Source of the DNA: Planctomycetota bacterium
Lineage (GTDB): Bacteria > Planctomycetota > UBA8742 > UBA2392
Assembly: GCA_020849795.1 (NCBI GenBank)
Contig: JADZFR010000004.1
Location: forward strand, 1-64,000
DNA length: 64,000 nt
Reading direction: 5' to 3'
A model generated the notes under the pieces. That model did no database searches. It was not told where the DNA came from and saw only the letters and a program-made list of their open reading frames with translations. Both the position numbers and the translations under genes were made by a program. This document shows, piece after piece, positions 14,651 through 49,242 of this stretch; the first letter of the stretch is position 1, and each line of letters begins with the position of its first letter.

Positions 14651-16195
14651 TCAGTCGCCTTTGGGTGTGCCTTCCGGCGTGTCCTTGGGCGCCTCTTTTG
14701 AAGGGTCTTTGGGTTCTTCCTTGGGCGGGTCTTCCTCGAAGCCTTCCTTGTACCAGCGCTGGAGCCTTACGCTGCCGTCCGTGGCGTACTCGCGGTACCA
14801 GCCGTCCAGCCAGCCCTGCTTGAACGTCCCGACGGCCTGGGGTTTGCCTTCGCGACTGAACCACTCCCACAGGCCCATGCGGGCGCCGTTGTCGTCGTAG
14901 TGGCACGTAAGTTGTTTGTTGCCGTTGTCCCACCAGAACTGCCACTTGCCCCGACGCTCGTAGTCCCAGTGGCCGTGGCTCTCGAGCGAGCCGTTGCGGT
15001 ACCATGTCTGCCAGAGGCCCTTGCGGTCGCCGTCGTACGTGCCTTCCTCAGACTTTTCGCCGTTGTCGTGCCAGAAGGTCCAGACACCCTTGCGTGAACC
15101 CTGGTTGTACTTGCCCTGCGCGGCCTTCTTTCCATTGGCGTGATAGCGCACCCAGTCGTTCTCGAGTTCGCCGCCCTGGTAGAAGCACTCAACCAGCTTC
15201 TCGCCGCTGACATGCCACAGCGCCCAGGCGCCGCTGCGTTCACCGCGCACATAAACGCCTTCGGCTCCTTTCTGGCTGTTGTCGTGCCAGAATGACCACT
15301 TGCCGGTGCGCTGGCCGGATTCTTTGTCGTACTCGCCTTCTTCTTTGCGGCTGGTGTTTTCGTGCCACCAGGTCCAGACGCCGTAGCGATTGCCGCGGTC
15401 GTAGGTGCCGGACGACTCTTTTACGCCGTCTTCGTAATAGTAGGTCCAGCGGCCGTGTTGCAGCAACTCCAGGTTTTCGCCCTCTGACTTCAGGTTGCCG
15501 TTTTCGTACCACCGCTTCCAGGGACCCGGCTTGGCGCCTTTGTACTCAATCTGTTCACTGGTGACGCCGTTAGCATACCAGCTGTCCCAGCGGCCTTCCT
15601 TCACGCCCAGCGTGTAGCGCCCGCTCTGCTGTAACTGGCCGGTGTCGTACCACCACTCCCACTTGCCGTCTTCCTTGTCGGCTTTCCAGTTGCCTTGCAG
15701 CGTGCGCGTTGCATTTCTGGCCCAGCTCACGGTGCGGCCGTCCTTGAGGCCGTCTTTGTAGTAGAGCTCGGCGCTTTTCTTGCCGTCGTTGTACCACCAC
15801 TCCCACTTGCCATCGCGTTTGCCGTCCTTGAACTTGCCCGCGCTTTCTTTCTTGCCCGTGGTGTGCCAGCGCGTCCATTCGCCCTGTTGCACGTCGGCGA
15901 TGTAGACGCCCAGTTGCAGGCGCTCACCGTTTTCGTGCCACCAGGTCCAGGTGCCGTCTTTCTTGCCCGACTTGTACTCGCCTGCGGTGCGGGTCTTGCC
16001 CGATTCATAGAACTCTTTGTATTCGCCCCAGCGCGTCTCGGCGCCCTTGTCGTCTACCTGCACCGCAAATCGCTCGCGCAGTTTGCCCGACTCGAACTTG
16101 GTTTCGCGCCATTCAACCTTCACCTTGGGGGCAGCCGGCAGCGCCGCAGCAAGCAGCGTGCAGACCAGCGCGAACATGAGACAGCGTGTCAGCAT
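14651..16195 (-). CDS. Exported MORN-type repeat protein
   Basis: A signal peptide (MLTRCLMFALVCTLLAAALP) is followed by about 18-20 tandem repeats of 20-25 residues with the core G-W-WW-NG-K (for example GKWEWWYNDGKKSAELYYKD). These are MORN_2/YwqK-type beta-hairpin repeats. They fill residues 35 to 480 and a Pro/Lys/Glu-rich tail (PPKEEPKDPSKEAPKDTPEG) ends the protein. The ATG at 16195 is supported by AGGAA 7 nt upstream. Such proteins are common in Bacteroidetes and the PVC group; the YwqK label refers to an antitoxin fold, but no toxin gene is adjacent. A structural or binding role at the cell surface is more likely than an antitoxin role, given the signal peptide. Confidence 0.8.
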   Translation of the reverse strand: MLTRCLMFALVCTLLAAALPAAPKVKVEWRETKFESGKLRERFAVQVDDKGAETRWGEYKEFYESGKTRTAGEYKSGKKDGTWTWWHENGERLQLGVYIADVQQGEWTRWHTTGKKESAGKFKDGKRDGKWEWWYNDGKKSAELYYKDGLKDGRTVSWARNATRTLQGNWKADKEDGKWEWWYDTGQLQQSGRYTLGVKEGRWDSWYANGVTSEQIEYKGAKPGPWKRWYENGNLKSEGENLELLQHGRWTYYYEDGVKESSGTYDRGNRYGVWTWWHENTSRKEEGEYDKESGQRTGKWSFWHDNSQKGAEGVYVRGERSGAWALWHVSGEKLVECFYQGGELENDWVRYHANGKKAAQGKYNQGSRKGVWTFWHDNGEKSEEGTYDGDRKGLWQTWYRNGSLESHGHWDYERRGKWQFWWDNGNKQLTCHYDDNGARMGLWEWFSREGKPQAVGTFKQGWLDGWYREYATDGSVRLQRWYKEGFEEDPPKEEPKDPSKEAPKDTPEGTPKGD

Positions 16196-16332
16196 GGAGA
16201 GTTCCTGGTACGGGCAGCGCGATTGTAGCTTGGGCCGTGACCAACTTTGGATTCCTGATTGCGGATTTTGCGTCAATCCGCGACTTTCGGGCCGCCCGCG
16301 TTTGCCAATTCGTCAGCATCCTTAAAGCAGCA

Positions 16333-23679: not shown

Positions 23680-24270
23680 TCACTGCACTGGCAGCTTCAA
23701 CAGCTTGCCCACGGCCCTGGCCAGTTCGGGATAGTCGATCGGCTTGGTAAAGAAGCCATCCACCCCGATGCGCTTGACCTTGCGCACCAGCTCGCTGTCG
23801 GCGCCCAGGCCCGACACTGCCACGATAAACGTGTTGCGCGTATCGTTGTTGGCGCGCAGGCGGCGGCACACTTCGGCGCCATCCAGCCTTGCGATCCCCA
23901 AGTCCAGGACAATCGCGTGCGGTTTCAAACCGCCGATCTTGAGCAGCGCGTCGTAGCCGTCGCCGCATTCTTCCACCAATACGCCGGAAAGGTGCTGGCC
24001 AAGGGCCTCGGTGGCTCGCTCCAGGATCTCGGGGTCATCGTCCACGATCAGGACTCGGCGCTCTTTGCCTGGTGCCAAGTCCTCAGGCACGGGAAAGCGG
24101 TTCTTTTCCAGAAACTTCAGGAACTCGTCCACGTCCATCCGGTACTGGCCGCCGGGTGTGGTGTACACCTCAAGCTTGTGGGCTTTGATCCAGTTGACCA
24201 CGGTGGCCGGCGTGACCTGGCAGTAGCGGGCGATGTCGCCGGTTGACAAAGATTTTCTACGAATCGGCAT
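23680..24270 (-). CDS. Response regulator with N-terminal excisionase-type HTH
   Basis: A 196-residue two-domain protein. Residues 5-60 are a BldC/excisionase-type HTH (LSTGDIARYCQVTPATVVNW, then the wing YTTPGGQYRMDVDEF). Residues 72-190 are a receiver domain: RRVLIVDDDPEI, phospho-acceptor Asp123 in AIVLDLGI, and the conserved Lys in FFTKPIDY. The DNA-binding domain is in front of the receiver, the reverse of the usual order. It is 145 nt upstream of pilT on the same strand and may regulate or be co-regulated with pilT-pilB. No partner kinase is adjacent. No clear ribosome site precedes the ATG. Confidence 0.88.
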   Translation of the reverse strand: MPIRRKSLSTGDIARYCQVTPATVVNWIKAHKLEVYTTPGGQYRMDVDEFLKFLEKNRFPVPEDLAPGKERRVLIVDDDPEILERATEALGQHLSGVLVEECGDGYDALLKIGGLKPHAIVLDLGIARLDGAEVCRRLRANNDTRNTFIVAVSGLGADSELVRKVKRIGVDGFFTKPIDYPELARAVGKLLKLPVQ

Positions 24271-27117: not shown

Positions 27118-28041
27118 TCAGTAGCCCGTGCTTTCCTGCTGGTTCCAGGTTTCGCGCAGGATCGTCAGGTAGCGCTGGTAGCGCCCCTGGTTCAGTTCAT
27201 GGCTTTCAACGGCGGATTTCACGCCGCAGTGCGGCTCGTGGCGGTGCGTGCAGGTGGCGAACTTGCATTGCTCGCGCGCCAGCTTCCAATCCGGGTAGTA
27301 CAGCGAGATCTCGTGCAGCTCCAGGTTCCAGAACCCGAAGTCGCGCACACCCGGCGTGTCAATCACATAGCCGCCCGCCATCGGCAGCAGGCTGGCATGC
27401 GTGGTGGTGTGCTTGCCTTCGCCCTCGCGGTCTACCACGCCGACGCGCAGGCCAAGGCCCGGCTGCAGGGCATTCATCAGGCTGCTCTTGCCCACGCCGC
27501 TCTGGCCGGCGAACACGCTTGTCTTGCCGTGAAAGCGCGCGGGCAGGTCGCCAAGATCGCCGGTTTCTGCGCTGGTGTAGAATACTTCGCAATGTGAGTA
27601 CGCGGCCATCTCGGCTTGCACTTCTGCCAGCGGGCGCAAGTCCAGCTTGTTCACCACGATCACGGGCGTCAGGCCCTGGCTGTAGGCGCTGATCAGCAGG
27701 CGATCGACGGTAAGCAACTGTTCGTCGATGCGTTCGGCGCCGATGACAATCACCAGCAGGTCAATGTTCGCGGCCAGCACCTGGCGCTGGCGCGGAAAGC
27801 GCGGGTGAGCGCGGTACAGCTCGGTGCGGCGCTCACCAATCTCGCTGATCTGGCCTTCCGGCTGATCGCCGGCCTGGATCAACGTGAACGAGACTTCGTC
27901 GCCGACGGCAATCGGGCTGCGCTGTTTGCGCTTGCCCTGCTTGAACTTGCCGCGCACGGGGCACATGTGCTCAACCTCGCCGACCTTGACCCAGGCGTGG
28001 TGCCCGTGAAGGCGTACTACTGTGCCGTGCAGTGTGGTCAT
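27118..28041 (-). CDS. rsgA: Ribosome small subunit-dependent GTPase RsgA
   Basis: A circularly permuted GTPase that helps the last steps of 30S maturation. An N-terminal OB-fold (HGTVVRLHGHHAWVKVGEVE) is followed by the permuted G motifs: G4 VVNKLDLRP, then G1 GQSGVGKSSLMN, then G3 VIDTPGVRDFG. The C-terminal zinc knuckle is visible as CKFATCTHRHEPHCGV. I chose the ATG at 28041 because the OB-fold starts there; an earlier start would add 48 residues with no domain. At 307 residues the length is normal. It is divergent from the histidine kinase and convergent with the TPR scaffold. Confidence 0.95.
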   Translation of the reverse strand: MTTLHGTVVRLHGHHAWVKVGEVEHMCPVRGKFKQGKRKQRSPIAVGDEVSFTLIQAGDQPEGQISEIGERRTELYRAHPRFPRQRQVLAANIDLLVIVIGAERIDEQLLTVDRLLISAYSQGLTPVIVVNKLDLRPLAEVQAEMAAYSHCEVFYTSAETGDLGDLPARFHGKTSVFAGQSGVGKSSLMNALQPGLGLRVGVVDREGEGKHTTTHASLLPMAGGYVIDTPGVRDFGFWNLELHEISLYYPDWKLAREQCKFATCTHRHEPHCGVKSAVESHELNQGRYQRYLTILRETWNQQESTGY

Positions 28042-28141
28042 CGCTTCGCGGTCTCCGCCCCGAGTGTGCACGCTTCTGCGCCGATTACCAGTTGCCGGTG
28101 CCACTCGCCGACACCGCCGGCATGCGCTACCATGCGTGGCA

Positions 28142-29713
28142 ATGTCGCTTCGCATGAAACTTGCGCTCGGTGTTCTTCTGGCCACGGTCTTTCTTGGCCT
28201 GATGCTTGGCTATCTGACGTATGAGGCCAGCCGCACACTCGACCAGACCGCCGAGAACCAGACCGCCGAGAACAAACGCATTTTCGAAGAACTCAGCCGC
28301 AGCTACCAGGCGCAGACACAGCGTGCCGTTGAGCGCATCGTGATCGCGCAGCTTCAACCCCTGCTGGCCAGCCCCGCCACCGAGATCGCAAACGGCCTGC
28401 GCGACGACCTGAACGGCATTGACGAAACTGCCATCATCGAACTGGATGAACGCGGCAACCCGCGCATGACCGTGATCAAGCCGCAGGGCAGCATGGCCGA
28501 GCCCACGGCCGAGGAAGTCGTCGTGATCAAGCGCGTCTTCGAGACCCGGCGCCACGAGCTGCTGGGCGACGTGCTGTTTCACCCGTACCAGCCGGACCCG
28601 AACCGCGCAGCGCTGCAATACGTGCTGCGCCTGAAAGTGAAGCTGCCGCCGATCCGCTTTGAAGAACCGCCCAAGGTAAAAAGCGCCGAGTTGGGTCCGC
28701 TGGTGGTTGCCGCGTTCACGACACTGGGCCTGGCGATGCTGGCGGTGTTCGTGCTGCTGATGTTCGCGCTGCGGCGATTTGTGCTGGCGCCCCTGGGCAA
28801 CGTGCTGGAAGACAGCAAGCGCATTGTGAAGGGCGCCGAGGGCCTTGAGATCAAAGGCTTCAAAGGCGGCGGCGGTGACATCGAAACGCTGGTGACCGCC
28901 TTCAACGCCATGTTCACCGAACTCAAGGCCTACCAGGGCGACCTCGAAGGCAAGGTCAAAGACGCCACCCGCACCATCCAGAAGCAGCAGCAGAGCCTGG
29001 TGATTGCGCAGCGGCTTGCGGCCACGGGCACGCTGGCTGCCGGCCTGGCGCACGAGGTGAACAACCCGCTTTCGGGCATGCTGAACGCCGCGCGCCGCCT
29101 GCGCAAACGCGAGGGGCTGGATGAGCGCAGCAGCGACTACCTGGGCCTGATCGAGGAAGGCCTGCAGCGCATTGAGCACCTGATGAAGCAGATTCTCGAT
29201 TTCTCGCGCCGGCGCGACATGAAGCCCGAGCGCTTTGACGCTGAGTCGGCCTTTCGGCGCGCGCTGCCGCTGGTCAAGCATCGCCTGGACCAGAAAGAGA
29301 TCCGGCTTGAAGAAGATATCCGCCAGGACCTGCCGCCGCTGTACGGCAACGAAGAAGAAATCGGCCAGGTGCTGATGAACCTGCTGATCAACGCGGCCGA
29401 CGCCTGCCCCGACGGCGGCGCGGTGCGTGTGACGATCGGGCCGTCAGACAAGCGCGGCGTGTTTTTCAGCATCGAGGACAGCGGCACCGGCGTGCCCGAA
29501 GACATGCGCGAGCGCATTTTCGACCCGTTCTTCACCACCAAAGAACCGGGCAAGGGCACGGGCCTGGGTTTGGCCATCGTGCACACGATCATCGACAACC
29601 ATGGCGGCAGCATCCGCGTCGAAGATGGCGTAACGCTTGGCGGCGCGCGCTTCACGGTGGAGCTGCCGCCGGCCGAGGTGCTTGAGTCCAAGCGCCGCCG
29701 CGAAGTGGTCTAG
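28142..29713 (+). CDS. Membrane sensor histidine kinase
   Basis: A 523-residue sensor kinase. The first helix (KLALGVLLATVFLGLMLGYL) and a second (VVAAFTTLGLAMLAVFVLLM) flank an extracytoplasmic domain of about 150 residues with no family I can name. A HAMP linker follows. The H-box GLAHEVNNPLSGMLN carries His304; this HEVNNPL form is typical of NtrB-like kinases. The N-box LMNLLINAADA, G1 EDSGTGVPE, F-box DPFFTTK and G2 GKGTGLGLAIVH are complete. There is no receiver domain or adjacent response regulator, so it is an orphan. The start has no strong ribosome site; Met at 28154 is an alternative. Confidence 0.92.
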   Translation: MSLRMKLALGVLLATVFLGLMLGYLTYEASRTLDQTAENQTAENKRIFEELSRSYQAQTQRAVERIVIAQLQPLLASPATEIANGLRDDLNGIDETAIIELDERGNPRMTVIKPQGSMAEPTAEEVVVIKRVFETRRHELLGDVLFHPYQPDPNRAALQYVLRLKVKLPPIRFEEPPKVKSAELGPLVVAAFTTLGLAMLAVFVLLMFALRRFVLAPLGNVLEDSKRIVKGAEGLEIKGFKGGGGDIETLVTAFNAMFTELKAYQGDLEGKVKDATRTIQKQQQSLVIAQRLAATGTLAAGLAHEVNNPLSGMLNAARRLRKREGLDERSSDYLGLIEEGLQRIEHLMKQILDFSRRRDMKPERFDAESAFRRALPLVKHRLDQKEIRLEEDIRQDLPPLYGNEEEIGQVLMNLLINAADACPDGGAVRVTIGPSDKRGVFFSIEDSGTGVPEDMRERIFDPFFTTKEPGKGTGLGLAIVHTIIDNHGGSIRVEDGVTLGGARFTVELPPAEVLESKRRREVV

Positions 29714-29779: not shown

Positions 29780-32362
29780 CTATCCGCCGCCGGCGGTGCG
29801 TGCCGGCGGGTGCGGGTTGTGCGGGTTGACAGCCTGCTCGCGCTTGATGATCGAGCGCTGCTGGGCTGTGGTCGGTGAACGGCCAAGTGCTTCGCCGGCT
29901 GCGTTGCGGGCGTCAAACACTTCGAGAATCAGCTTGGTGCGCTGCGCCTCGTCGTCCGTTTCCGCCAGGTTGTACTCAAGGCGCACGAGGCCCTTGAGGC
30001 CGTTGAAGCCATCCTCGTCCCACGCGCCACGGTGGGTGCCGTAAGTGGCGCCGAGCGCGCGGGCCGCGCTGGCCTTCACGCGCGGGCGGTCCACTGCCTC
30101 GGTGCTGTTGACGGTGTCCAGCAGGTTCGGAATCAGGTTGGCACGTACCCATGCGGCGCCGGTGCGCTTGCCGTCGGCCACGAGCACCTCGATGGCTTTG
30201 CAGATGGCTTCACGGGCAGCCCATGAGCGGCCGTCCAGGCGCAGGCCGCCCGACAGTGCCTCCAGCAGGCTCTGCACGTTGTACTTGGTGGTCGCCGGGT
30301 TCAGCAGCGAGATCGCCCAGGCCATCGACACCACCGTGTCGTTGGTCTTGCCCTTGGCGTTCTCGACGTTTTCTTCGGCGCCCCATGCGGCGTCAAGCGA
30401 CTGGCCCAAGCCGCTGGTGTTGACGGTGTACTCGGCTTCGGCCTTGTAGGTCACATAGCGGGTGTCATCCAGGCCAAGCGCGGCGAGGTCGCCCTTGCGG
30501 CTGTCGAGCTCTGACTCAGGCACCGCAACCAGCACCGGCACCCCCTGCGTGCGGATATCGTTGGCGAGCAGGTGGTAAATCGGCTCGGCCTTTTCCGCGC
30601 GGTTGGCTGCACCGGCGATGTTGGGCATCTCGAACACAAACACCGCGCCCATGGCGAGGTTGCCCTCAAGGATGATCGCGTCCCAGGGCGTGCCCTGTGT
30701 GGCAAGGTCCGCGCCTTCTTCCAGCGTGCGGGCGCCGACTGCGGCATAGCCCAGGCTGGTAAGCTCGGACAGGAAGCGGTTGCGCAGCGCCTCGTCTTCC
30801 ATGATCACGAGCACGGTGCGGGCGGCAACTTCCTGCAGGTTCTTGCGCGCTTCCGCCTCGACCAATGCGTTGTTGCCGAAGTCTTTCTCGGCGCCAAGGC
30901 GGATCAGGCTGCGCGCTGCGGCATAACGAATGTTCTTGTCGGGGTCAGCCAGCGCGCGCACCAGCGGTGCGGCGGCGTTGGTGCCGATGGCCGACTTGTC
31001 GTTCAGGTCCGCGATGGCGTCGCACAGAGCGATGGCCACGTGCGGGTAACCGTCGGCCAGGCTGCGCTCCAGCGCGCGGTACAGCACCGCGCTACCTGCC
31101 GAGGCACTGAGGCCAAAGCCGTGCAGGTTGGGCACAAATCCGCGCTCGCCCAGCAACTCGGTGATGAACGCGCGCTCGGCGTCGTCACCCAGGAAGTAGC
31201 GGCCGCGCCCTTCGGTGTACATGTGCATGTGAATGCAGGCGAGCAGCGCTTCTGCGTCGCGCACCCAGTTGTTGGTGTTGGCGTCGCCACCGGCATACTT
31301 GATGCCAAGGTCAATCGCTTCCAGTGCGGCTTCTTCAGCAACGACATCGGCAAACGCCCACAGCGGCACATCCTGCGGGGTCAGCATGCTGTCATCTTCG
31401 CCCGCCAGTTCTTTGCCGGGGATCCACTTCCATGCCGTGTAGCGGCGGTCGTGGCTGTACAGCGCGACGGGCAGGTTGCCCTGGTAGGTGCTGCCGACCA
31501 GGCGGTTGCGCCAGAAGCGGCCGGCGGCGTTGTTGCGGTAGTAGCCTTCGGCTTGCAGGAAATACAGGTCCTTGGCGTCGTTGACTTTGGTGTCTTTCTC
31601 GGGCGATGCGGCGCGAATCCACTCAATGGCAGCGCGGCATGCTTCGCGCACTTCGTTGTCTTCGTCCTTGGCCTGGAAATGTTTGGCAAGCACAGGCAGC
31701 GCGCGCGCGTCGCCGATGTCGCCAAGTGCCAGCGCGGCGGTCTGGCGGTCGTACTTCTCGGCGCTGTACATCACCTGGATCAGCGCGTTCACGGCCTGCG
31801 CGCCCACGGTGCGCAGCAGCGTGCGCGCCTCATAGCGCGAGTCGGCGCTTTCGTTGTGCATATAGCGCGCCTGAAGGTACGGCACGACAAAGTCGCCGTA
31901 GCTGTCGCGAATGCTTTGTCCGCGCAGCAGCTTGCGGGCAACGTCGCGGTCCGACATGTACGCGTCTACGTACTGCTTGATCGCCTCAACGTCGTTGCTG
32001 CGGCCCTGCGGGTCGGTCTGCGCGCGGCCGGCCAGCAGCCACTTGCCGAAACGACTGTAGCGCCCGGTCAGGCTGGCGTCTTTGAAGTTGGCGTCGATGA
32101 AGTCGCGGGCGAGCTCAAGGCCCACTTCGTCGCGAATCTTGCGCGCCTCTTCGTCGGTGGGTCGGCCCGCGAGTGCCTTGTCGAACTCACGGATTGCCTT
32201 TTCCCAGTTCCCGCGCTTGTACTCGCGAATGCCGTCTTTGACGGTGCCGACAGCGTCCTGCGCGGCGACGGTGCTCTGCACCGGGCCAAGCTGGCTGTAG
32301 CTGAGGCTCAACACGAAAGCCAACGCGATAGCGAAAGACGCACGCACAATGCGTAGCAGCAT
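29780..32362 (-). CDS. Exported HEAT-repeat protein with receiver-like domain
   Basis: An 860-residue exported protein of unknown function. The signal peptide (IVRASFAIALAFVLSLSYSQ) is followed by a TPR pair (YKRGNWEKAIREFDKALAG) and several HEAT repeats (DRQTAALALGDIGDARALPV; DPDKNIRYAAARSLIRLGAE). Residues 514-650 resemble a response-regulator receiver: TVLVIMEDEALRNRFLSEL, then WDAIILEGN, then GVPVLVAVPES. The acidic pocket is partly kept, but the phospho-acceptor position is Glu, not Asp. HEAT-like repeats resume to the C-terminus. AAGGAG 9 nt upstream decides the ATG at 32362. A receiver fold in an exported protein is unusual. It is probably a degenerate fold used for binding. Confidence 0.8.
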   Translation of the reverse strand: MLLRIVRASFAIALAFVLSLSYSQLGPVQSTVAAQDAVGTVKDGIREYKRGNWEKAIREFDKALAGRPTDEEARKIRDEVGLELARDFIDANFKDASLTGRYSRFGKWLLAGRAQTDPQGRSNDVEAIKQYVDAYMSDRDVARKLLRGQSIRDSYGDFVVPYLQARYMHNESADSRYEARTLLRTVGAQAVNALIQVMYSAEKYDRQTAALALGDIGDARALPVLAKHFQAKDEDNEVREACRAAIEWIRAASPEKDTKVNDAKDLYFLQAEGYYRNNAAGRFWRNRLVGSTYQGNLPVALYSHDRRYTAWKWIPGKELAGEDDSMLTPQDVPLWAFADVVAEEAALEAIDLGIKYAGGDANTNNWVRDAEALLACIHMHMYTEGRGRYFLGDDAERAFITELLGERGFVPNLHGFGLSASAGSAVLYRALERSLADGYPHVAIALCDAIADLNDKSAIGTNAAAPLVRALADPDKNIRYAAARSLIRLGAEKDFGNNALVEAEARKNLQEVAARTVLVIMEDEALRNRFLSELTSLGYAAVGARTLEEGADLATQGTPWDAIILEGNLAMGAVFVFEMPNIAGAANRAEKAEPIYHLLANDIRTQGVPVLVAVPESELDSRKGDLAALGLDDTRYVTYKAEAEYTVNTSGLGQSLDAAWGAEENVENAKGKTNDTVVSMAWAISLLNPATTKYNVQSLLEALSGGLRLDGRSWAAREAICKAIEVLVADGKRTGAAWVRANLIPNLLDTVNSTEAVDRPRVKASAARALGATYGTHRGAWDEDGFNGLKGLVRLEYNLAETDDEAQRTKLILEVFDARNAAGEALGRSPTTAQQRSIIKREQAVNPHNPHPPARTAGGG

Positions 32363-32560: not shown

Positions 32561-35500
32561 CTAGTCTTCATCCGGAGTTTCGGGTACGGCCAGTTCTTTC
32601 TCTACTAATGCGGCCCTGAAGCCGGCCGGATAACGCATTTTGCCATCGCCGCTGAACGACACCCACTCGCGGTGGGCCAACTTCCCCTCAGAGTCATAGA
32701 CGCCGACTTCATGTGTGCCGGGCAAGCCACCAACAAATGGCAACGCGCAGCCTTCAACCAGTGACAAGTATCGAATGTCGAGCCATTGCCACTCTTCGTG
32801 CATTTCGACGGCTTTCTTCCACTCCACGGTTACCGTCTCGCCGTCCTGCTGCACGCGCAGGCGAATCGGTTTCATGATCAGGCTTCGTTCGTCTTCTCCT
32901 TCATAGCGCGTGAAGTACCCCACCAGGCAGACATCAACGCCCTTGGGCACCCCGTGCACCAGCAAGCCGTTCGGCACAAAGCGCCACTCAAGCGTGTCGC
33001 CCTGGTCCGCGAATTTTGTCGACATGCGAAAATGCTCCGGGTCAGTCAGCGGCAGCAGTTGCAGCTCCATGTATACGTTCGGCCTATCCGCAAACTCCAT
33101 CGGGAAGCTCAGGCGCACGTCCACGAACTCGGTGTTCAGGGCCGGCAGCACGACGACACGATCACCGCCCACGGTCAGGTCAAGGTCAGATGCTCCGGCT
33201 GGGCCAGCCGCGGCTGGCGGCAACATGCGGTAGCGCGCGGGGGGCAGAAGTTTGATTTCCGGTCCCCAGACCGTGTCGTACTGTTCGGGTTCGAGCGTGC
33301 CATCGTCGCGGTACTTGAACATGCGAAGCCGCGGATAGTCTTGTGTGTTGCTCACTCCCTCGGCGTTCACGAATTCAACGCGCACCTGGCCAAGTTCTAC
33401 CTCGACGCGGGTGACCTCCCCGCGCCGGACTTGCACTTCCTGGATGTGCCTGACAGTCTGCAGCGTCACCTCAAGCGAGGCCTTGCCCGGCGGAAACCAC
33501 AGGCTTACGGCGCCCGTGCTGGTGCTGCCGGCGCATTGTGAAGAGCCATTCGCACCATCGCTCTGGCCCCACACCGAGGCCCGGAAGTTTGTCACGTCGA
33601 CGCCCCGGCGCTTGACCCGCACTTCAATACGCGTCGGCAACTCGATCGACAATTTTGCCGCAGGCGCCTCTGCGGTTGGCGGGGAGATCTGCACCGCGAT
33701 CTTCTGGTCGCCATCCAGCAAGTGCGCGGGCAATGCGCCGCACTCGATGTTCGTGTCGTCGGTGTAGCTGGCGCGGCCGAATTCACGGCCATCCGGGTGC
33801 AGAAACGCAGCCGAAACTTCAACCGGTTGCTCGCCCACGCGTACCCTGCACTGCAGGTGGTCGGCGCGGACTGCCCACGGCGGCGGCCCGATCAGCGGCA
33901 TCTCCACGACCGTGTACTCGCCCTCGATCACGGTTGCGGTGACCGGCCCGCAGATGTCTGACGGATAGCCCCAGTCGCACCCGCCGGTCAAGTGCACGAT
34001 CGCGTTGCCCGGCCGGGTCTCGATCTGTAGTTCTCCCGCCTCATCAACCAGCAGGTTGATCCAGTGGTCCGAGTCGCCGACATCTCCCCGGATCCAGAGG
34101 CGCAGTTGAAACACACCATCCGTCGGCACACCCTTGGGTCGTTTCGGCAGCCTGACCTTGATGCCGGTGTCCGGCACCAACTTCGCGGTCAATTGCAGGA
34201 CAAGCTCCGTGTCGCCGGGCTTGGTCTCGCCAGTGGTGTTTTCGAAGCCCTCCAGCATGGCGGTGCACGAGGTCGGGCTGCTGGATACGACGGGCACGCT
34301 GGCCAGCGGCCCCTCGGACCGGCCCGAGTACCCGTTGTCGTCCGGAAGGCTGAAGGACCAAATCACGAACGAGTCTTTGGCCGGCGTGCCGTCGGGCATG
34401 AGCACTCTTACAGGCACAGTGGCGGCAGCTTTCAGGCTGACCTTCAGCTCAGTGACGACGTTGTCGGGGACATCCAGCACGCCGCCGGCTGGCAGGTAGA
34501 CTCGGTCGCCGTTCTGGGAATTGACGGTCCAGTGATAGCGGCCCTCGGGCACCAGCATGGTGACTTTGTGCGGCGCCGGCGGAATGCCTTCATAGAAGTA
34601 CAGGTTGCCGCTGCTGAGTACAAGGCTGGCCATTTCGCCGTGGTAGTAGCCGCCCTCGTCAATCGCCAACGTGCCGTCATGGCGCAGGTTGATCTTTGGC
34701 GACGGGTCCATTTCGACGGTGACATCCAGCAATGAACCCTTCAGCGAGATGTCGCCAAAGTCGATGTGCCGGCCCACAGACCGCGGTGTCGGAAGGCGGA
34801 GCGAGTTGCCGGGACCATCCCGGTCCACGTTGATCAGAAGGCTCCAGCGTAACGATGCCACGTTCGGGACAACCTCTGTTGCATACTCCGGCAACAAGGT
34901 CATGAATCGACCCTGGCCGTCTGTGCCGAAATAGATCCAGTCGTCGAACTCACTCTCTGGCTCACTCAGGCTCAATGCGTGGTTGCCGGTGTGGCACAGC
35001 GTACGTCCCGACGTGTGCACCAGGCGCCCCGTGACCACGAACTCTTCCGGGAACATCGACTCCAGCGTCAGCAGCACCTCGCCAAAGTCGAGCGTGCGGC
35101 CGCTGGCTTTCGGAAAAACCCGCAGGCAGCCCTTGGGCTCCTGCCAGTCGCGGCGCTCGTCTGCGTCCTCCGCGGGTGCAAACCCCCCGCCCCCGGTGGG
35201 CTCAAAGTCCACGTACCAGTAGAGCACCTCCGGGGACTCGTTCGCTTCCAGCCAAAGGTCGTCCTGCGTGACTTCGCCCTCAAAGGACCAGTCGCTGCCC
35301 ATCGACGCTTCAAACTCACTGTAGTTCTGCGGCGCCGACGGGCCCCGATAGGCCCGCACGCTTACCGACAAGTCCTCGGGCAACAGGTGCGCCAGCGGGT
35401 TTGCGCCCGCCGAAGGGTCCATCTTCACGCGGCCACGCACGGTCCAGTCGGTTGACGTTGCCTCCGGCTCGGTTTCCGGCGACTTGGGTGTTCTGCGTCC

Positions 35501-35710
35501 TTCAAGATTATGGGCCGGCTGGCTGTCGCCGCTGCAGCCCGGCTGTCGGCGGGCAGGCGACCCGGGCTGGTCAGGCTCGTTCCGGCTTGCCAGTGCCGAA
35601 TTCTCGATGTTCGGGCCGGCTTGGCCGTCCGGCTGCAGGATCAGCCAGATCACGGCCCCGGCCAGCGAGAGAATGAACACGAGCAGCAGGACAAGCTGAT
35701 GCGGGCGCAT
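32561..35710 (-). CDS. Large exported, N-terminally anchored protein of unknown function
   Basis: A protein of about 1049 residues. An N-terminal hydrophobic helix (QLVLLLVFILSLAGAVIWLI) probably serves as an uncleaved anchor. A disordered Pro/Ser/Glu-rich stretch follows to about residue 90. The rest is predicted beta-rich, with repeating segments that look like carboxypeptidase-regulatory or other Ig-like modules (ARYRMLPPAAAGPAG, VPEGRYHWTVNSQNGDRVYL, EGEYTVVEMP). I see no catalytic motif. I chose the ATG at 35710; a TTG at 35722 would add four residues. Neither has a good ribosome site. The tail lacks a membrane helix or sorting tag. It is probably a surface-exposed structural or binding protein. 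Confidence 0.65.
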   Translation of the reverse strand: MRPHQLVLLLVFILSLAGAVIWLILQPDGQAGPNIENSALASRNEPDQPGSPARRQPGCSGDSQPAHNLEGRRTPKSPETEPEATSTDWTVRGRVKMDPSAGANPLAHLLPEDLSVSVRAYRGPSAPQNYSEFEASMGSDWSFEGEVTQDDLWLEANESPEVLYWYVDFEPTGGGGFAPAEDADERRDWQEPKGCLRVFPKASGRTLDFGEVLLTLESMFPEEFVVTGRLVHTSGRTLCHTGNHALSLSEPESEFDDWIYFGTDGQGRFMTLLPEYATEVVPNVASLRWSLLINVDRDGPGNSLRLPTPRSVGRHIDFGDISLKGSLLDVTVEMDPSPKINLRHDGTLAIDEGGYYHGEMASLVLSSGNLYFYEGIPPAPHKVTMLVPEGRYHWTVNSQNGDRVYLPAGGVLDVPDNVVTELKVSLKAAATVPVRVLMPDGTPAKDSFVIWSFSLPDDNGYSGRSEGPLASVPVVSSSPTSCTAMLEGFENTTGETKPGDTELVLQLTAKLVPDTGIKVRLPKRPKGVPTDGVFQLRLWIRGDVGDSDHWINLLVDEAGELQIETRPGNAIVHLTGGCDWGYPSDICGPVTATVIEGEYTVVEMPLIGPPPWAVRADHLQCRVRVGEQPVEVSAAFLHPDGREFGRASYTDDTNIECGALPAHLLDGDQKIAVQISPPTAEAPAAKLSIELPTRIEVRVKRRGVDVTNFRASVWGQSDGANGSSQCAGSTSTGAVSLWFPPGKASLEVTLQTVRHIQEVQVRRGEVTRVEVELGQVRVEFVNAEGVSNTQDYPRLRMFKYRDDGTLEPEQYDTVWGPEIKLLPPARYRMLPPAAAGPAGASDLDLTVGGDRVVVLPALNTEFVDVRLSFPMEFADRPNVYMELQLLPLTDPEHFRMSTKFADQGDTLEWRFVPNGLLVHGVPKGVDVCLVGYFTRYEGEDERSLIMKPIRLRVQQDGETVTVEWKKAVEMHEEWQWLDIRYLSLVEGCALPFVGGLPGTHEVGVYDSEGKLAHREWVSFSGDGKMRYPAGFRAALVEKELAVPETPDED

Positions 35711-35832
35711 GGAAAAGTCCAAGCCAGGGCAGGGGTCTACGCGCGGTCAGTATACGACGCGCGACGGCGGGGCGGCGCGGGCAAACTCGGGCGGATTGGC
35801 GGATCGGCAAGGGCTGCGGGAGGGATTGCGGC

Positions 35833-38025
35833 TCACGCATTCTGGATCGCGTCGAGGCGGGTAAACCACTCGCCGTGCCAGGGCTCATAGTTGCGCCAGC
35901 GTTCGACGCTGCGCTTGTACAGTGGCTCGCGCACCTGCGTCACGCTGGCGGTGCGCACCGTGCGCTCGGTCTTGTGGAACTGCAGGCATCGGTCGTCCCA
36001 CTCGACGTTCACAAATTCAAGCAGCTTGCGGGCGTGGGGCTCAAGGTCGTCGACCATGTCTTCGTAGCGCACCTCGTGAAAGCGGCCGGGCAGCACGTTG
36101 CGCCAGTGCTGCATCACGCGCCAATAGTTAGCGAAGTGGCTTGCGATGTTCGCCTGCGTGTTCGCCCAGCGAATCTGGCCGAAGTGCGTGTTCCAGCAGC
36201 TTGTCGCCACGTCGCGCAGGTCGCGCCGCAGATGAATGATCTTGGCGTTCTGGAACAGTGTCAGGATCATGCCGATGTGCAGGTAGTTCTCGGGCATCTT
36301 GTCGCTGATGCGGTCGGCCGTCGGGGCATACGCGAGCAGCCGCTTCAGGTGCGCGTCGGCCACGGCCTGCACATGGTCTCGGTTCAGCGCGGCCACGGCT
36401 TCCCAGCGGCTCGCGGCCCCCGTGACTGCCGGCAGCGACTCGAACGAGTCGCGGGCAAGCCGCAACTCGTCGGCGCCGAACACCCGGGGGTGGCTTGCCA
36501 GCACCTGCTCGACCAGCGTGGTACCCGAGCGCGGCAGCCCGAGGATGAACACCGGCACCTCGCTGGCGTTGCCCCAGCCGGCGGTGCGCTTGAAGTGCGC
36601 GGCATCAAACACGCGCACCATCTCGTTCACGTACATCGTGTGTTCGTCGGCACTGTAGGCCAGGCCGCGGCGTTGCCAGCTTTGCTCTTGCAACTCGTTG
36701 GCCAGCGCAAGCTGCGGGGCCGCGGTCGCGTAGTCCTTGGTCGCGTCGGCGTACACGCCCATCGCAAAGTGCAGGCTTTGCATGCCGTTGCTGCGCTTTG
36801 AGGTCGGCGCCTGCAACGCGGCACGCAGGCCCGCCAGGTCCGCCGCCGGCATCTTGGCCTTCAGCAGGCCGGCCAGCGACTCCCAGGCACCGGGGCAGCC
36901 CGGGTCAAGCTGCAGCGCGCGGCGCAGGTTCTTCTCGGCGTCATCAAAGCGCCCCAAGTGGTTCAGCACGCCGCTGCGCCCCACATACAGGGCGGGCAGG
37001 CGCGGGTTCGCCTGCTCGGCACGGTCGTAGTGCGCCAATGCGGGCGCGGTGTCGCCCCTGCGCTGCGCGACTGCGCCTAGCCCGATGTGGGCCTCGGCAC
37101 ATCCGGGGTCCATCTTTGCGGCTTGCACGTACAGCCGCTCGGCCTCAAGGATGCGGTCGAGCTCGGCCAGCACACTGGCGTAGTTGCACACGGTCTTGGC
37201 GGCGCGCGGGTCAAGCTTGAGTGATTGCTCGTACCAGCGCATCGCCTCGGCATAGTTGCCGCGCTCCTGGTTCAACTGGCCGATGTTGTTGTGCGTGATG
37301 GCCAGTTGCGGGTTCTGCTTCAGCGCCTCGTTGTACTGGGCTTCGGCTTCGTCAAGGCGGCCGGCTTCGCGCAGGGCGTTGCCGTAGTTGTTGCGGGCGG
37401 CGGATAGCCGCGGGTTCAGTTTTACGGCGTTGGCCAGGCGCTGCAGCGCCTCTTCGGTGTCGCCGTCCTCAAGCAGCATCTGTCCCAGGTTGCTGAGAAA
37501 CTCGGCGTTGGTGGGTTCAAGCTGGCAGGCCTTGCGGGCGGCGGCCAGGGCTTCGTCTACGCGCTTGAGCACGCGCAGCACGTTGCCCAGGTTGTTCCAG
37601 GCCAGCGCGTTGGCCGGTTGGGCATCGAGCACGCGGCGCAGTTCTTTCTCGGCGTCGGGCAAGTTGCCCTGCGAAGCCAGCGCCAGCGCCAGGTTGACAC
37701 GGCATGCGTGATAGCCGGCGTCGAGGTTCAACGCCGCGCGGCAGTGGGCGACTGCGTCGTTGAGCTTGCCGGCGCTGCGGTAGGCCTCAGCCAGGTTCGA
37801 GTGCATTGCGGGCACGTCGGGCCGGGTCTGGACAGCGCGGGTAATCAGGTTGATCGCGCCCTGCGCGTCGCCTTTCTGCAGGGCGATCACGCCGGTCAGG
37901 TGCAGCGCGTCGACGAACTCAGGCGCATCCATCGGGACGGTGGCGTAGGCCTTCTCGGCTTCAGGCAGGCGCCCGGCGCGGTGCAGACCCATGGCCTGTT
38001 GCAGAATCTCGGCGGGTGTCGGCAT
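35833..38025 (-). CDS. TPR-sulfotransferase fusion
   Basis: A 730-residue protein with two parts. Residues 1-440 hold about 11 TPRs (for example LAWNNLGNVLRVLKRVDEAL). Residues 480-720 form a PAPS-dependent sulfotransferase: the 5'-phosphosulfate loop is FILGLPRSGTTLVEQVLASH and the 3'-phosphate motif is IIHLRRDLRDVATSCW. This fold transfers sulfate from PAPS to carbohydrate or protein. TPR-sulfotransferases are frequent in planctomycetes and some proteobacteria and are thought to act on proteins or glycans. A catalytic His is expected in DKMPENYLHIG. A terminator lies only 16 nt upstream and there is no ribosome site, so translation may be leaderless. Confidence 0.9.
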   Translation of the reverse strand: MPTPAEILQQAMGLHRAGRLPEAEKAYATVPMDAPEFVDALHLTGVIALQKGDAQGAINLITRAVQTRPDVPAMHSNLAEAYRSAGKLNDAVAHCRAALNLDAGYHACRVNLALALASQGNLPDAEKELRRVLDAQPANALAWNNLGNVLRVLKRVDEALAAARKACQLEPTNAEFLSNLGQMLLEDGDTEEALQRLANAVKLNPRLSAARNNYGNALREAGRLDEAEAQYNEALKQNPQLAITHNNIGQLNQERGNYAEAMRWYEQSLKLDPRAAKTVCNYASVLAELDRILEAERLYVQAAKMDPGCAEAHIGLGAVAQRRGDTAPALAHYDRAEQANPRLPALYVGRSGVLNHLGRFDDAEKNLRRALQLDPGCPGAWESLAGLLKAKMPAADLAGLRAALQAPTSKRSNGMQSLHFAMGVYADATKDYATAAPQLALANELQEQSWQRRGLAYSADEHTMYVNEMVRVFDAAHFKRTAGWGNASEVPVFILGLPRSGTTLVEQVLASHPRVFGADELRLARDSFESLPAVTGAASRWEAVAALNRDHVQAVADAHLKRLLAYAPTADRISDKMPENYLHIGMILTLFQNAKIIHLRRDLRDVATSCWNTHFGQIRWANTQANIASHFANYWRVMQHWRNVLPGRFHEVRYEDMVDDLEPHARKLLEFVNVEWDDRCLQFHKTERTVRTASVTQVREPLYKRSVERWRNYEPWHGEWFTRLDAIQNA

Positions 38026-38085: not shown

Positions 38086-41000
38086 TTACGCCGAGCGGCG
38101 CCGGCGGCGCAGGAACGCTACCGCGCCGACGAACATGGCGCCGACCAGTGCCAGCGGGCCACGGTTGCTGCTGCTTTCACAACCGCCGCCGCTGCTCCCG
38201 CCGCCGCCGCCACCACCGCCGCTGACTGGCGGCACCTGAGTGATGGTAGGCACGTCTGTGGGCAGTGATTCGCTGATGCCGTCAAAGGCCGCCGCCAGGA
38301 AGTTGTTGTCCGAGTTGGCGGTCAACGGTGTCGGTACTGTGAAAGCGGTCGCACCGCCCGAGAGCTGCACAAAGGCCACCTGTGAGTCGCCGAGATTCAC
38401 AAAGCCGTCGTTGTTCAGGTCCGAGTAGATGCGAACCATCGCGTCGGCCTGCGCGGTGCCCGAAATGTTGAAGACGCCGCTGGATGTTGTGACGGACGTG
38501 GACGGCGTGGCAACCACCGGCGAGGCCACCGCGGGCGCGGTCGTCTCAGTGATGGTGGGGACATCTTCTGGTGCTGACTCGTTACCCGCGGCGTCCGTCG
38601 CCGTGACAAGGAAGTTGTTGGTCGTGCTTTGCGTGATCGGCGTGCTGACATTGAACGCCGTGGCGCCGCCGGTCAGTTGCTGGCTGCCGACCACCGAGTC
38701 GCCGGTATCAATCACGCCGTTGTTGTTGAAGTCGCTGTAGACCTGCACCAGACTGTCGGCTTCAGCGGTGCCGATAATGTTGAAGTTTGTGCCGGTGACG
38801 CTGACCGCCGTGGCCGGTGTAGTGACTACCGGCGTGGCCGGTGCGGTGCTGTCCTGGGTCACGGTCGGCACATCTGTTGCTGCCGACTCGCCGCTGCCGT
38901 CGTCGGCGGTGACGAGGAAGTTGTTGTCGCTGTCCGCGATCAGGGGAACGGCAACGCTGTAGTTGGTCGAGCCGCCCATCAGTTGCATCGACCCCGCGAC
39001 CGAGTCGCCGGTCGTGTCGCCATCGTTGTTGGTGTCGCGATACACACGCACCAGCGAATTGGCCGGCGCCGTCCCCTGGATCACGATGCTGGCGCCGTTC
39101 GTCACCACCGTTGCAGAGGGGCTGGTGACCGTCGGCGGCGTCAAGCCGGAACCGGCCTGGTACTCCAGGGCCCCGATGTCCGCGCCATTGCCGTCGTCGC
39201 GAAGGTAGCCGGCACCGCGCTGGTCGGTGGTCAGGCTGTTTGCGAGACCGGCATTGCGCGCCGGGCTGCCGGACGCAATGGCCCGCGTCTGGGTCGGGCC
39301 GCCGTTCTGGCCCAGGGGCGCCAGTTGCGGGTCCTGGCCGGTGATGTTGTTGCTGCCGGTCAGGGTCGCGCCGCCGGTGTCTTCGACGAGGCAGTTGGTT
39401 CCTGTCACGGCGCCCGAGACGTCGTTTGCCTGCGTGGCAGTGTTATCGGCGATGATTGTGCTGGACGCGGTGACTGTGCCGCCGGCTCGGACCAACCCGC
39501 CGCCAGACGGTGTGAGAGTGCCGCCTGCAAGGCCCGCCGCGCCCGTGGATGCGCCATTTCCGCCGTTGCCGCCTGTACCCGGCGAAGCGTTGTTGCCGGC
39601 CGAGTTGCCGGCCACGGTTGCGTTGTTCAACTGGGTTGTGCCGTTCAGGTTGTACACGCCGCCGCCGGATGCGAGGCCGGTGTTGCCGCCCGCGCCGCCA
39701 TTGCCGCCGTTGCCGCCGCCGCTGGCCCAGCCGCCATTGGCGCCGTCGCCGCCGCTGCCGGGCAACACGTTGTTGTCCGCAACCGTCGAGTTGATGACCA
39801 CCAGCGTCTGCGTGCCGCCCGCGCGGAACAGGCCGCCGCCCACGCCGTCGCCGCCTGCGCCGCCCGCACCGGCGTGCCCGCCGCGGCCGCCGCTGGTGCC
39901 GTCGCCGCCATCGCCGCCGGTGGCCCCGTTGCCGCCCTGGCACAGGTTGCCGGAGATGTTGGAGCGCTCAACGCGCACGATCACGCCGGCCTGCCCGACG
40001 TACACTCCGCCGCCGCGCGCCGCGCCGCCATCGCCCGAATCGCCGGCGTCGCCGCCGCGATTCGACCAGCCGGTGCCACCGTCGCCACCGTTGTTGAGGC
40101 CGGGGTCAATCGCCCAGCCGCCGTTGCATTCGTTGGCGGTGATCTCGCACTCGGTCAGTGTGGTGTTGCCAAGGCGCGCGTAGACCGCACCGCCTTCGGC
40201 TGCGCCGCCATCACCGCCGTCGCCACCATCACCACCCGAGTTCGAGTACGAGCTGCCTGCGCCGCCCGCGCCGCTGTTGCCGCCGTCGGCCACGTTCTGG
40301 CTCAGCTCGGCCTGGCTGACGACCACAGTGCCGCTGTCCACATAGATGGCTCCGCCCTGCGCCGCGCCGCCGGCGCCGCCCGCGCCGCCCGGGTGCGCGC
40401 CACCCGCCGGCCCGGCAGTGCCTGAGCCGGCGGTGCCGGCCCAGCCGCCCTGGGCATTGTTGGTCGCAAAGGCGCTTCCGTTCTGGATGTTGACGCTGCC
40501 GCCGGCGACATAGATCGCGCCGCCTTGGCCGGCCCCGCCGTCGCCGCCGTTTCCGCCCCCGAGATTGCCCGAACTTGAGCCGCTGGCGCCATACCCGCCC
40601 CAGCCGCCCCACGCGCGATTGCCGCCGAAGTCTGCGTTGTCGATCGTGACCGTGCCCGCCGCCACGAACAGTGCGCCGCCCGCGCCGATTGCGCCGTCGC
40701 CACCATTACCGCCGGCGCTGCCGGTGCCGCCGGTGCCGCCGTAGGCGTAGTTTTCGCCGAAGTCTGAGTTGGTGACTTGGAGCGTGCCGCCTGCCAGGTA
40801 GATTGCGCCGCCCTCGCCGACCCCGCCGGCCCCGCCGTTTAGCGGGCCGGCCGAGTCGCCGGATGCGCCCGTGCCGCCCCATGCCCGGTTGTTGGTGACA
40901 ATGCACGAGTTGATGTTCAGCGTGCCGCCTGCGCTGTAAATCGCGCCGCCGCGCGCTTCCTGGCCCGGCGTGCCCGGCAACGCCCCGGACGCGCCCCATG

Positions 41001-41541
41001 CCGCGCAGCCGTCAATGATCAGGTTGTTCAGCACCAGGTTGGTGTTGGTCGCGCCGCTGGTGGTCTTCTTGTTCAGGATTGCGCCGCCCCGGGCTTCATT
41101 GAGAGGGGCACTGGTCGAGCCGTCGTCGTCGACGTCGCAGTTGCGAATTGTCATGTCCTCGATCGTGATCGTGATCGCGGCGCCGCTGACAATGTGAATC
41201 GCTCGGTCGTCGGTGGCTTCAAGGAATGTGTTTGCCCGGCCGGCACCCTTGATGGTCAGGTTGCCCGCGCTCTTGGTGATGTCGAGGTCACCCGACACGT
41301 TGGCGTTGTCGTGCTTGCCGCTGCCCAGCGCGTAGGTGCCTGCCGCGAGGATGATTGTGTCGTTGGATGTCGAGTTGTTCACGGCGGTAATTGCCGTGCG
41401 CAGCCCGGCCGCGGTCGAGACATTGTGCGTCACCTGCGCCGACACGCCCTGGCTTGCGGCGGCTGCCAGCCAGAACGGCGCCGACGCCAGCAGTGCGCGC
41501 TTGAGGTCAAGATTGCGATAGAAGGAAGGGCGACGGGCCAT
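38086..41541 (-). CDS. Pmp-like glycine-rich beta-helix surface protein with Cys-type tag
   Basis: A 1151-residue exported protein. After the signal peptide, residues 35-720 are parallel beta-helix coils, each with a GGAIY-type turn, a strand, an N-x-A or S-x-N motif and a glycine-rich loop (GGxGGxGG). The GGA[I/L/V] plus xxxN pattern resembles chlamydial Pmp proteins; the loops resemble mycobacterial PGRS. A choice-of-anchor Q type segment (TTDQRGAGYLRDDGNGADIG) closes the helix. Three Ig-like modules of about 98 residues with calcium-type loops (YSDLNNDGFVNLGD) follow, then a Gly linker, GGGCESSS, a hydrophobic helix and RRRRRSA. It is probably a cell-surface adhesin. AAAGGTGG upstream supports the start. 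Confidence 0.85.
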   Translation of the reverse strand: MARRPSFYRNLDLKRALLASAPFWLAAAASQGVSAQVTHNVSTAAGLRTAITAVNNSTSNDTIILAAGTYALGSGKHDNANVSGDLDITKSAGNLTIKGAGRANTFLEATDDRAIHIVSGAAITITIEDMTIRNCDVDDDGSTSAPLNEARGGAILNKKTTSGATNTNLVLNNLIIDGCAAWGASGALPGTPGQEARGGAIYSAGGTLNINSCIVTNNRAWGGTGASGDSAGPLNGGAGGVGEGGAIYLAGGTLQVTNSDFGENYAYGGTGGTGSAGGNGGDGAIGAGGALFVAAGTVTIDNADFGGNRAWGGWGGYGASGSSSGNLGGGNGGDGGAGQGGAIYVAGGSVNIQNGSAFATNNAQGGWAGTAGSGTAGPAGGAHPGGAGGAGGAAQGGAIYVDSGTVVVSQAELSQNVADGGNSGAGGAGSSYSNSGGDGGDGGDGGAAEGGAVYARLGNTTLTECEITANECNGGWAIDPGLNNGGDGGTGWSNRGGDAGDSGDGGAARGGGVYVGQAGVIVRVERSNISGNLCQGGNGATGGDGGDGTSGGRGGHAGAGGAGGDGVGGGLFRAGGTQTLVVINSTVADNNVLPGSGGDGANGGWASGGGNGGNGGAGGNTGLASGGGVYNLNGTTQLNNATVAGNSAGNNASPGTGGNGGNGASTGAAGLAGGTLTPSGGGLVRAGGTVTASSTIIADNTATQANDVSGAVTGTNCLVEDTGGATLTGSNNITGQDPQLAPLGQNGGPTQTRAIASGSPARNAGLANSLTTDQRGAGYLRDDGNGADIGALEYQAGSGLTPPTVTSPSATVVTNGASIVIQGTAPANSLVRVYRDTNNDGDTTGDSVAGSMQLMGGSTNYSVAVPLIADSDNNFLVTADDGSGESAATDVPTVTQDSTAPATPVVTTPATAVSVTGTNFNIIGTAEADSLVQVYSDFNNNGVIDTGDSVVGSQQLTGGATAFNVSTPITQSTTNNFLVTATDAAGNESAPEDVPTITETTAPAVASPVVATPSTSVTTSSGVFNISGTAQADAMVRIYSDLNNDGFVNLGDSQVAFVQLSGGATAFTVPTPLTANSDNNFLAAAFDGISESLPTDVPTITQVPPVSGGGGGGGGSSGGGCESSSNRGPLALVGAMFVGAVAFLRRRRRSA

Positions 41542-49056: not shown

Positions 49057-49242
49057 AGTTCAATCCTCAAGTGTTCCTGAATGGTCAGAAGCATGCGCCC
49101 AATCATGCGGAAGTCCATGCAAAAGTTGGAAAGCGCACACGCGAAGCCATTTGGTCCGTATGTACGCCTGAAATCACATTGCATTCGTCGCCCCGTATGC
49201 TTAGAAACCCAACGGCTGGGCACACTTTGTGGGAGTCACGTG

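Follow-up and report, generated by a model that had tools for sequence, protein, structure and literature searches.

A predicted exported TPR/HEAT-repeat protein of Planctomycetota contains a receiver-derived domain without the phosphorylation residues

Receiver domains depend on a phosphodonor for their chemistry and are therefore generally regarded as cytoplasmic. The pseudo-receivers of KaiA, CikA and FimX are all cytoplasmic and are joined to clock, kinase or c-di-GMP domains, and the second receiver of PleD is an adaptor receiver. The KaiA, CikA and FimX domains have lost the phosphorylation residues and have been proposed to act as phosphorylation-independent binding modules (PMC1974792). 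The FrzS pseudo-receiver of Myxococcus xanthus is without the acceptor Asp, has an incomplete acidic pair and no Thr, binds neither Mg2+ nor BeF3-, and functions as a phosphorylation-independent protein-recognition module (PMC1974792).

We compared these systems with an 860-aa protein encoded in the window (the whole 64,000-nucleotide stretch of Planctomycetota DNA that was analysed), which contains a domain that fits the pseudo-receiver description, namely a receiver fold without phosphorylation residues. Like the domains of KaiA, CikA and FimX, that of the protein family keeps the receiver fold with the phosphorylation residues lost, and like FrzS, which the family profile matched, it is a receiver fold without the acceptor Asp. 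However, FrzS is cytoplasmic and uses its alpha4-beta5-alpha5 output face, whereas the family is predicted to be exported, is built of HEAT repeats and leaves that face unconserved. PleD was the best PDB match by sequence, with both of its tandem receivers aligned, and its second receiver shares an R-T-x-x-P-V segment before beta4; yet PleD is a cytoplasmic protein that is phosphorylated on its first receiver and signals through a diguanylate cyclase, whereas the family has no catalytic domain. Other exported HEAT/TPR repeat proteins likewise combine a signal peptide with an alpha-solenoid, to which this family adds a receiver between HEAT blocks. In the open-access literature searched, no exported, periplasmic or extracytoplasmic receiver was described and nothing on point was found for HEAT/receiver proteins.

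The gene lies on the reverse strand, with its ATG at position 32362 just downstream of a Shine-Dalgarno sequence (GAAGGAG), and its frame closes at 29780 (Table 1). Relatives in the same taxonomic family are 47-97% identical to the 860-aa protein across nearly its full length. HEAT repeats were recognised by Pfam (PF13646, 4e-15; PF02985, 9.5e-6) and form a solenoid in the AlphaFold2 model, with helices on either side of the receiver, as the first-pass annotation had proposed.

Table 1. Coordinates in the window of the 860-aa gene, its parts and the adjoining kinase gene.
Feature	Position	Strand	Basis
Membrane histidine kinase (HAMP, HisKA, HATPase_c)	28022..29713	+	Pfam; convergent with the 860-aa gene
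Gene, predicted exported TPR/HEAT-pseudo-receiver protein	29780..32362	-	860 aa + stop; ORF, Shine-Dalgarno
Predicted signal peptide, residues 1 to ~36, AxA-Q type site near 33-36	32255..32362	-	Hydrophobic core + AxA in 77/80 relatives
TPR-like helices, residues 37-110	32033..32254	-	Weak Pfam TPR at 44-77; model helix pairs
First HEAT block, residues 124-280	31523..31993	-	Pfam HEAT_2 E=4e-15 at 162-246
Second HEAT block, residues 334-510, into conserved junction with E511	30833..31363	-	Pfam HEAT 466-489; model helices 334-509
Pseudo-receiver domain, residues 514-660	30383..30823	-	AlphaFold2, Foldseek, PDB-receiver profile match, landmark counts
Third HEAT block, residues 661-846	29825..30382	-	Model helices 661-843; weak HEAT_EZ at 714-771

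The AlphaFold2 model of the full protein, built with the family alignment, had a pLDDT of 84.7 overall and of about 90 over most of the receiver domain. It runs from a signal helix through the TPR/HEAT solenoid into a (beta-alpha)5 domain (residues 516-660) and on into more HEAT helices. The elements of the domain are b1 516-520, a1 524-536, b2 540-544, a2 547-556, b3 562-566, a3 595-601, b4 610-615, a4 616-625, b5 636-640 and a5 649-659, and a hairpin insertion at 573-594 was modelled at lower confidence. Because the full-length Foldseek search was dominated by HEAT solenoids, the domain was also modelled alone (pLDDT 85.3); its best PDB matches were receivers, with TM scores, normalised by single-domain targets, mostly of 0.6-0.8, and a search of a viral fold library returned mostly weaker receiver matches. 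On the 860-aa sequence alone, neither Pfam nor NCBIfam reported a receiver above threshold, NCBIfam giving only a weak VirA-type kinase match over 506-567. A profile of 50 relatives, searched against the PDB, matched PleD (E=2e-21) and PhoB (2e-14), and also CheY and FrzS; the Pfam Response_reg model was matched by 34 of the 50 family members, and the family profile detected canonical receivers of the same genome at E values down to 3.5e-16. Given these three results, the family domain is homologous to receivers, beyond mere fold likeness. The first-pass annotation had picked out a receiver-like domain by eye from the segments VLVIMEDE (517-524), WDAIILEGN (560-568) and GVPVLVAVPE (607-616), all of which are present. 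This was a good call for a single sequence that falls below Pfam significance; modelling, Foldseek and profile searches all bear it out, and the segment does not adopt a different alpha-beta fold.

The residues needed for phosphotransfer have not been kept as a set. The five landmark positions are occupied in the 860-aa protein by M521/E522 (acidic pair), E566 (acceptor), V614 (Thr/Ser position) and Y639 (Lys position, with K640 adjacent and an alignment uncertain by one residue), so that the Glu read earlier at the acceptor Asp position is indeed there. Among 93 family receivers, the acceptor Asp was kept in 17 (members such as L019 and L021) and the landmark Lys in 10, and many members are acidic at one or both positions of the pair; the acidic pair and acceptor Asp occurred together in none of the 93, nor did the full set of five catalytic residues (misaligned residues in the most divergent rows could change individual counts). 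The same alignment procedure found the acceptor Asp in 15/15 canonical receivers of the same genome. The five catalytic columns carried 0.74-1.73 bits in the family, against a domain mean of 1.57, and 3.1-4.3 bits in the canonical receivers. One of these, a fusion of HTH_17 with a canonical receiver at 23683-24270 (-), retains all five active-site residues (D, D, D, S, K) and served as a control. With catalytic constraint lost across the 93 members and no relative found with the full set, the early description of the domain as inserted and inactive stands. The family domain, though descended from a true response-regulator receiver, has apparently given up phosphotransfer; single lineages that keep the Asp or the acidic pair may retain weak phosphorylation or metal binding. 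Of the features of a two-component response regulator, the 860-aa protein has no known output domain (Pfam) and a predicted signal peptide instead of a cytoplasmic form.

Export was assessed heuristically from the N-termini of 80 relatives, which were examined for a basic n-region, a hydrophobic h-region and an AxA site. In 77 of the 80, an AxA-like site follows a strongly hydrophobic segment, and 79 have a basic residue within the hydrophobic segment or immediately ahead of it. Two of the three exceptions (L022 and L042) resemble signal peptides with another cleavage motif, and the third (L045) was apparently misjudged, its ORF carrying a long upstream extension. No comparable hydrophobic segment was found ahead of the canonical receivers of the same genome. 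In the signal-peptide region dN/dS was relaxed (1.33 and 0.41), against a constrained remainder. This signal-peptide call supports the prediction that the 860-aa protein is Sec-exported. A signal peptide had been noted at first reading, and the ribosome-binding site and ATG directly in front of it, together with its recurrence among the relatives, argue against a mis-called start of a cytoplasmic protein.

Conservation within the domain fell away from the catalytic columns. The conserved columns include D561 (3.93 bits), P609 (3.47), R604 (3.22) and D602 (3.16), together with G550, T605, the strands and a Pro in the alpha2-beta3 loop (column of residue 558); E511 and R515 at the HEAT junction were also conserved. 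For R604, T605, D602 and the loop Pro, conservation exceeded that in this genome's canonical receivers. These four positions lie in loops that lead from a helix into a strand, on the far end of the sheet from the phosphorylation site. The conserved edge comprises D561, D602-x-R604-T605 and P609; the canonical output elements were poorly conserved (alpha4 1.17 bits, alpha5 1.28 bits). We infer that the conserved edge may dock on the solenoid; folding may instead explain why the alpha2-beta3 and alpha3-beta4 edge is conserved. Receiver-domain dN/dS was 0.014 against the nearest relative (L002) and 0.21 against the next (L003), so the domain is under purifying selection, and the lower value indicates that it is functional.

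The searches centred on genomes of Planctomycetota, and the records of the collection were Planctomycetota MAGs. The 860-aa protein matched 84 of 99 related genomes, the weakest matches possibly reflecting generic HEAT similarity. With a profile of 61 relatives, 293 of 294 sampled Planctomycetota genomes were matched at E<=1e-10; about 56 of the 294 (a hand count that includes the sampled f46 members) had weak, probably generic HEAT matches or none, leaving a strong family match in about four fifths. No match was found in the plasmid sequences searched. Homologues without a detectable receiver domain, the search for which had been suggested at the outset, exist in four lineages (L127, L130, L131 and L132, of families f74, f79, f89 and f32), probably through lineage-specific loss or extreme divergence, and the receiver is therefore not essential to the scaffold everywhere. 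Members of f44 are without the first strand-helix region of the receiver, and the f36 proteins (L121, L137 and L142) exceed 1000 aa and have a receiver match split in two, as if something had been inserted.

The gene neighbourhood differed between lineages, and the idea of one two-component operon fixed throughout the phylum was rejected for that reason. The histidine kinase gene of Table 1 is a neighbour and at most a candidate partner of the 860-aa protein; a similar kinase neighbours the gene in L078 and L079 and is kept beside it in some members of the same taxonomic family. Of 28 families, 7 had AnmK within the 5 kb that precede the family gene, against a chance expectation of 0.08 families for a single-copy gene (shared ancestry makes the p-value merely indicative). 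AnmK was on the same strand and upstream in L096:7058-8215, L113:11053-12267, L097:7963-9138 and L099:12434-13591, and directly adjacent in the first three. A NagZ-like GH3 gene occurred within 5 kb of the family gene in 4 of 28 families. Several of these loci also have a divergent NtrC-type regulator, and others have FHA or Ser/Thr kinase genes near the family gene. Together these neighbours hint at a possible role in cell-wall turnover or signalling.

Upstream of the 860-aa gene, the window also encodes a 1050-aa protein with no Pfam match and an N-terminal hydrophobic segment (32564-35713, -) and a glycine-rich, repetitive 1151-aa protein, likewise without a Pfam match (38089-41541, -). TPR repeats fused to a sulfotransferase domain are encoded at 35836-38025 (-), an N-acetylmuramoyl-L-alanine amidase (Amidase_2) with golvesin C-terminal and fn3 domains at 49081-50994 (+), and a MORN-repeat-variant protein (MORN_2) at 14651-16276 (-).

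The computations support the export signal, the fold, the ancestry, the loss of the catalytic set, purifying selection and phylum-wide conservation. We consider it likely that the protein is an exported pseudo-receiver locked into a TPR/HEAT scaffold and kept for binding or shape, not phosphotransfer. A Sec-type signal peptide would send the 860-aa protein across the inner membrane, and the mature protein would be a TPR/HEAT alpha-solenoid with a receiver-fold domain between two HEAT blocks. The acidic pair (Mg-binding), acceptor Asp, Thr/Ser and Lys are kept together in none of the members examined, and phosphotransfer would be lost. Selection retains the hydrophobic core, the edge facing away from the former active site and the HEAT helix that runs into the domain. 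Docked rigidly on the solenoid through this edge, the pseudo-receiver could, with its variable faces and the solenoid, offer a binding surface to a periplasmic protein partner. The docking geometry, the partner and the link to peptidoglycan turnover are what we infer from these patterns, as is the role of a binding module.

A purely structural role is also conceivable, in which the pseudo-receiver would be a spacer or fold stabiliser in the solenoid without a binding role of its own. Such a role fits the location of the conserved residues (the core, the HEAT junction and the edge on the far side from the former active site), the low conservation of alpha4 and alpha5, and the absence of the domain from some lineages. 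However, a separate globular domain would be an expensive spacer, this one is kept across most of the phylum with a very low dN/dS between close relatives, and a variable binding face could look unconserved between distant relatives; we regard the spacer as unlikely. The adjoining histidine kinase, a membrane protein with a cytoplasmic kinase part, and the signalling genes nearby in several lineages would suit a protein that is cytoplasmic, or anchored facing the cytoplasm, with an N-terminus that is an uncleaved anchor or a wrong start. This is very improbable, given the Shine-Dalgarno sequence and ATG directly in front of the signal, the recurrence of the basic-hydrophobic-AxA arrangement in 77 of 80 relatives, and the contrast between a rapidly evolving signal region and the constrained body after it. 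That the receiver works outside the cytoplasm as an active phosphorelay or metal-switched module appears hardly credible. The acceptor Asp in 17 of 93 receivers, the acidic residues at one or both pair positions in many, and the frequent proximity of signalling genes (histidine kinase, NtrC-type regulators, FHA protein, Ser/Thr kinase) point towards it, but none of the 93 combines the acidic pair with the acceptor Asp or has all five residues, and we know of no ATP-dependent phosphodonor to be expected in the periplasm.

On the preferred reading of a pseudo-receiver kept for binding or shape, a bolder scenario, which we offer as speculative and rather doubtful, is that a receiver-derived module was fixed in an exported scaffold early in Planctomycetota and, together with cell-wall recycling enzymes encoded nearby such as AnmK and NagZ, makes up an extracytoplasmic device that senses or organises envelope turnover across the phylum through recognition independent of phosphorylation. 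If a receiver is indeed exported across most of the phylum, this would demonstrate that binding or shape by itself is enough for the fold to be retained beyond the cell interior. The family represents an envelope protein that is widely conserved in Planctomycetota and apparently uncharacterised, in a phylum whose envelope biology is poorly understood, and it is a concrete target for knock-out and pull-down work.
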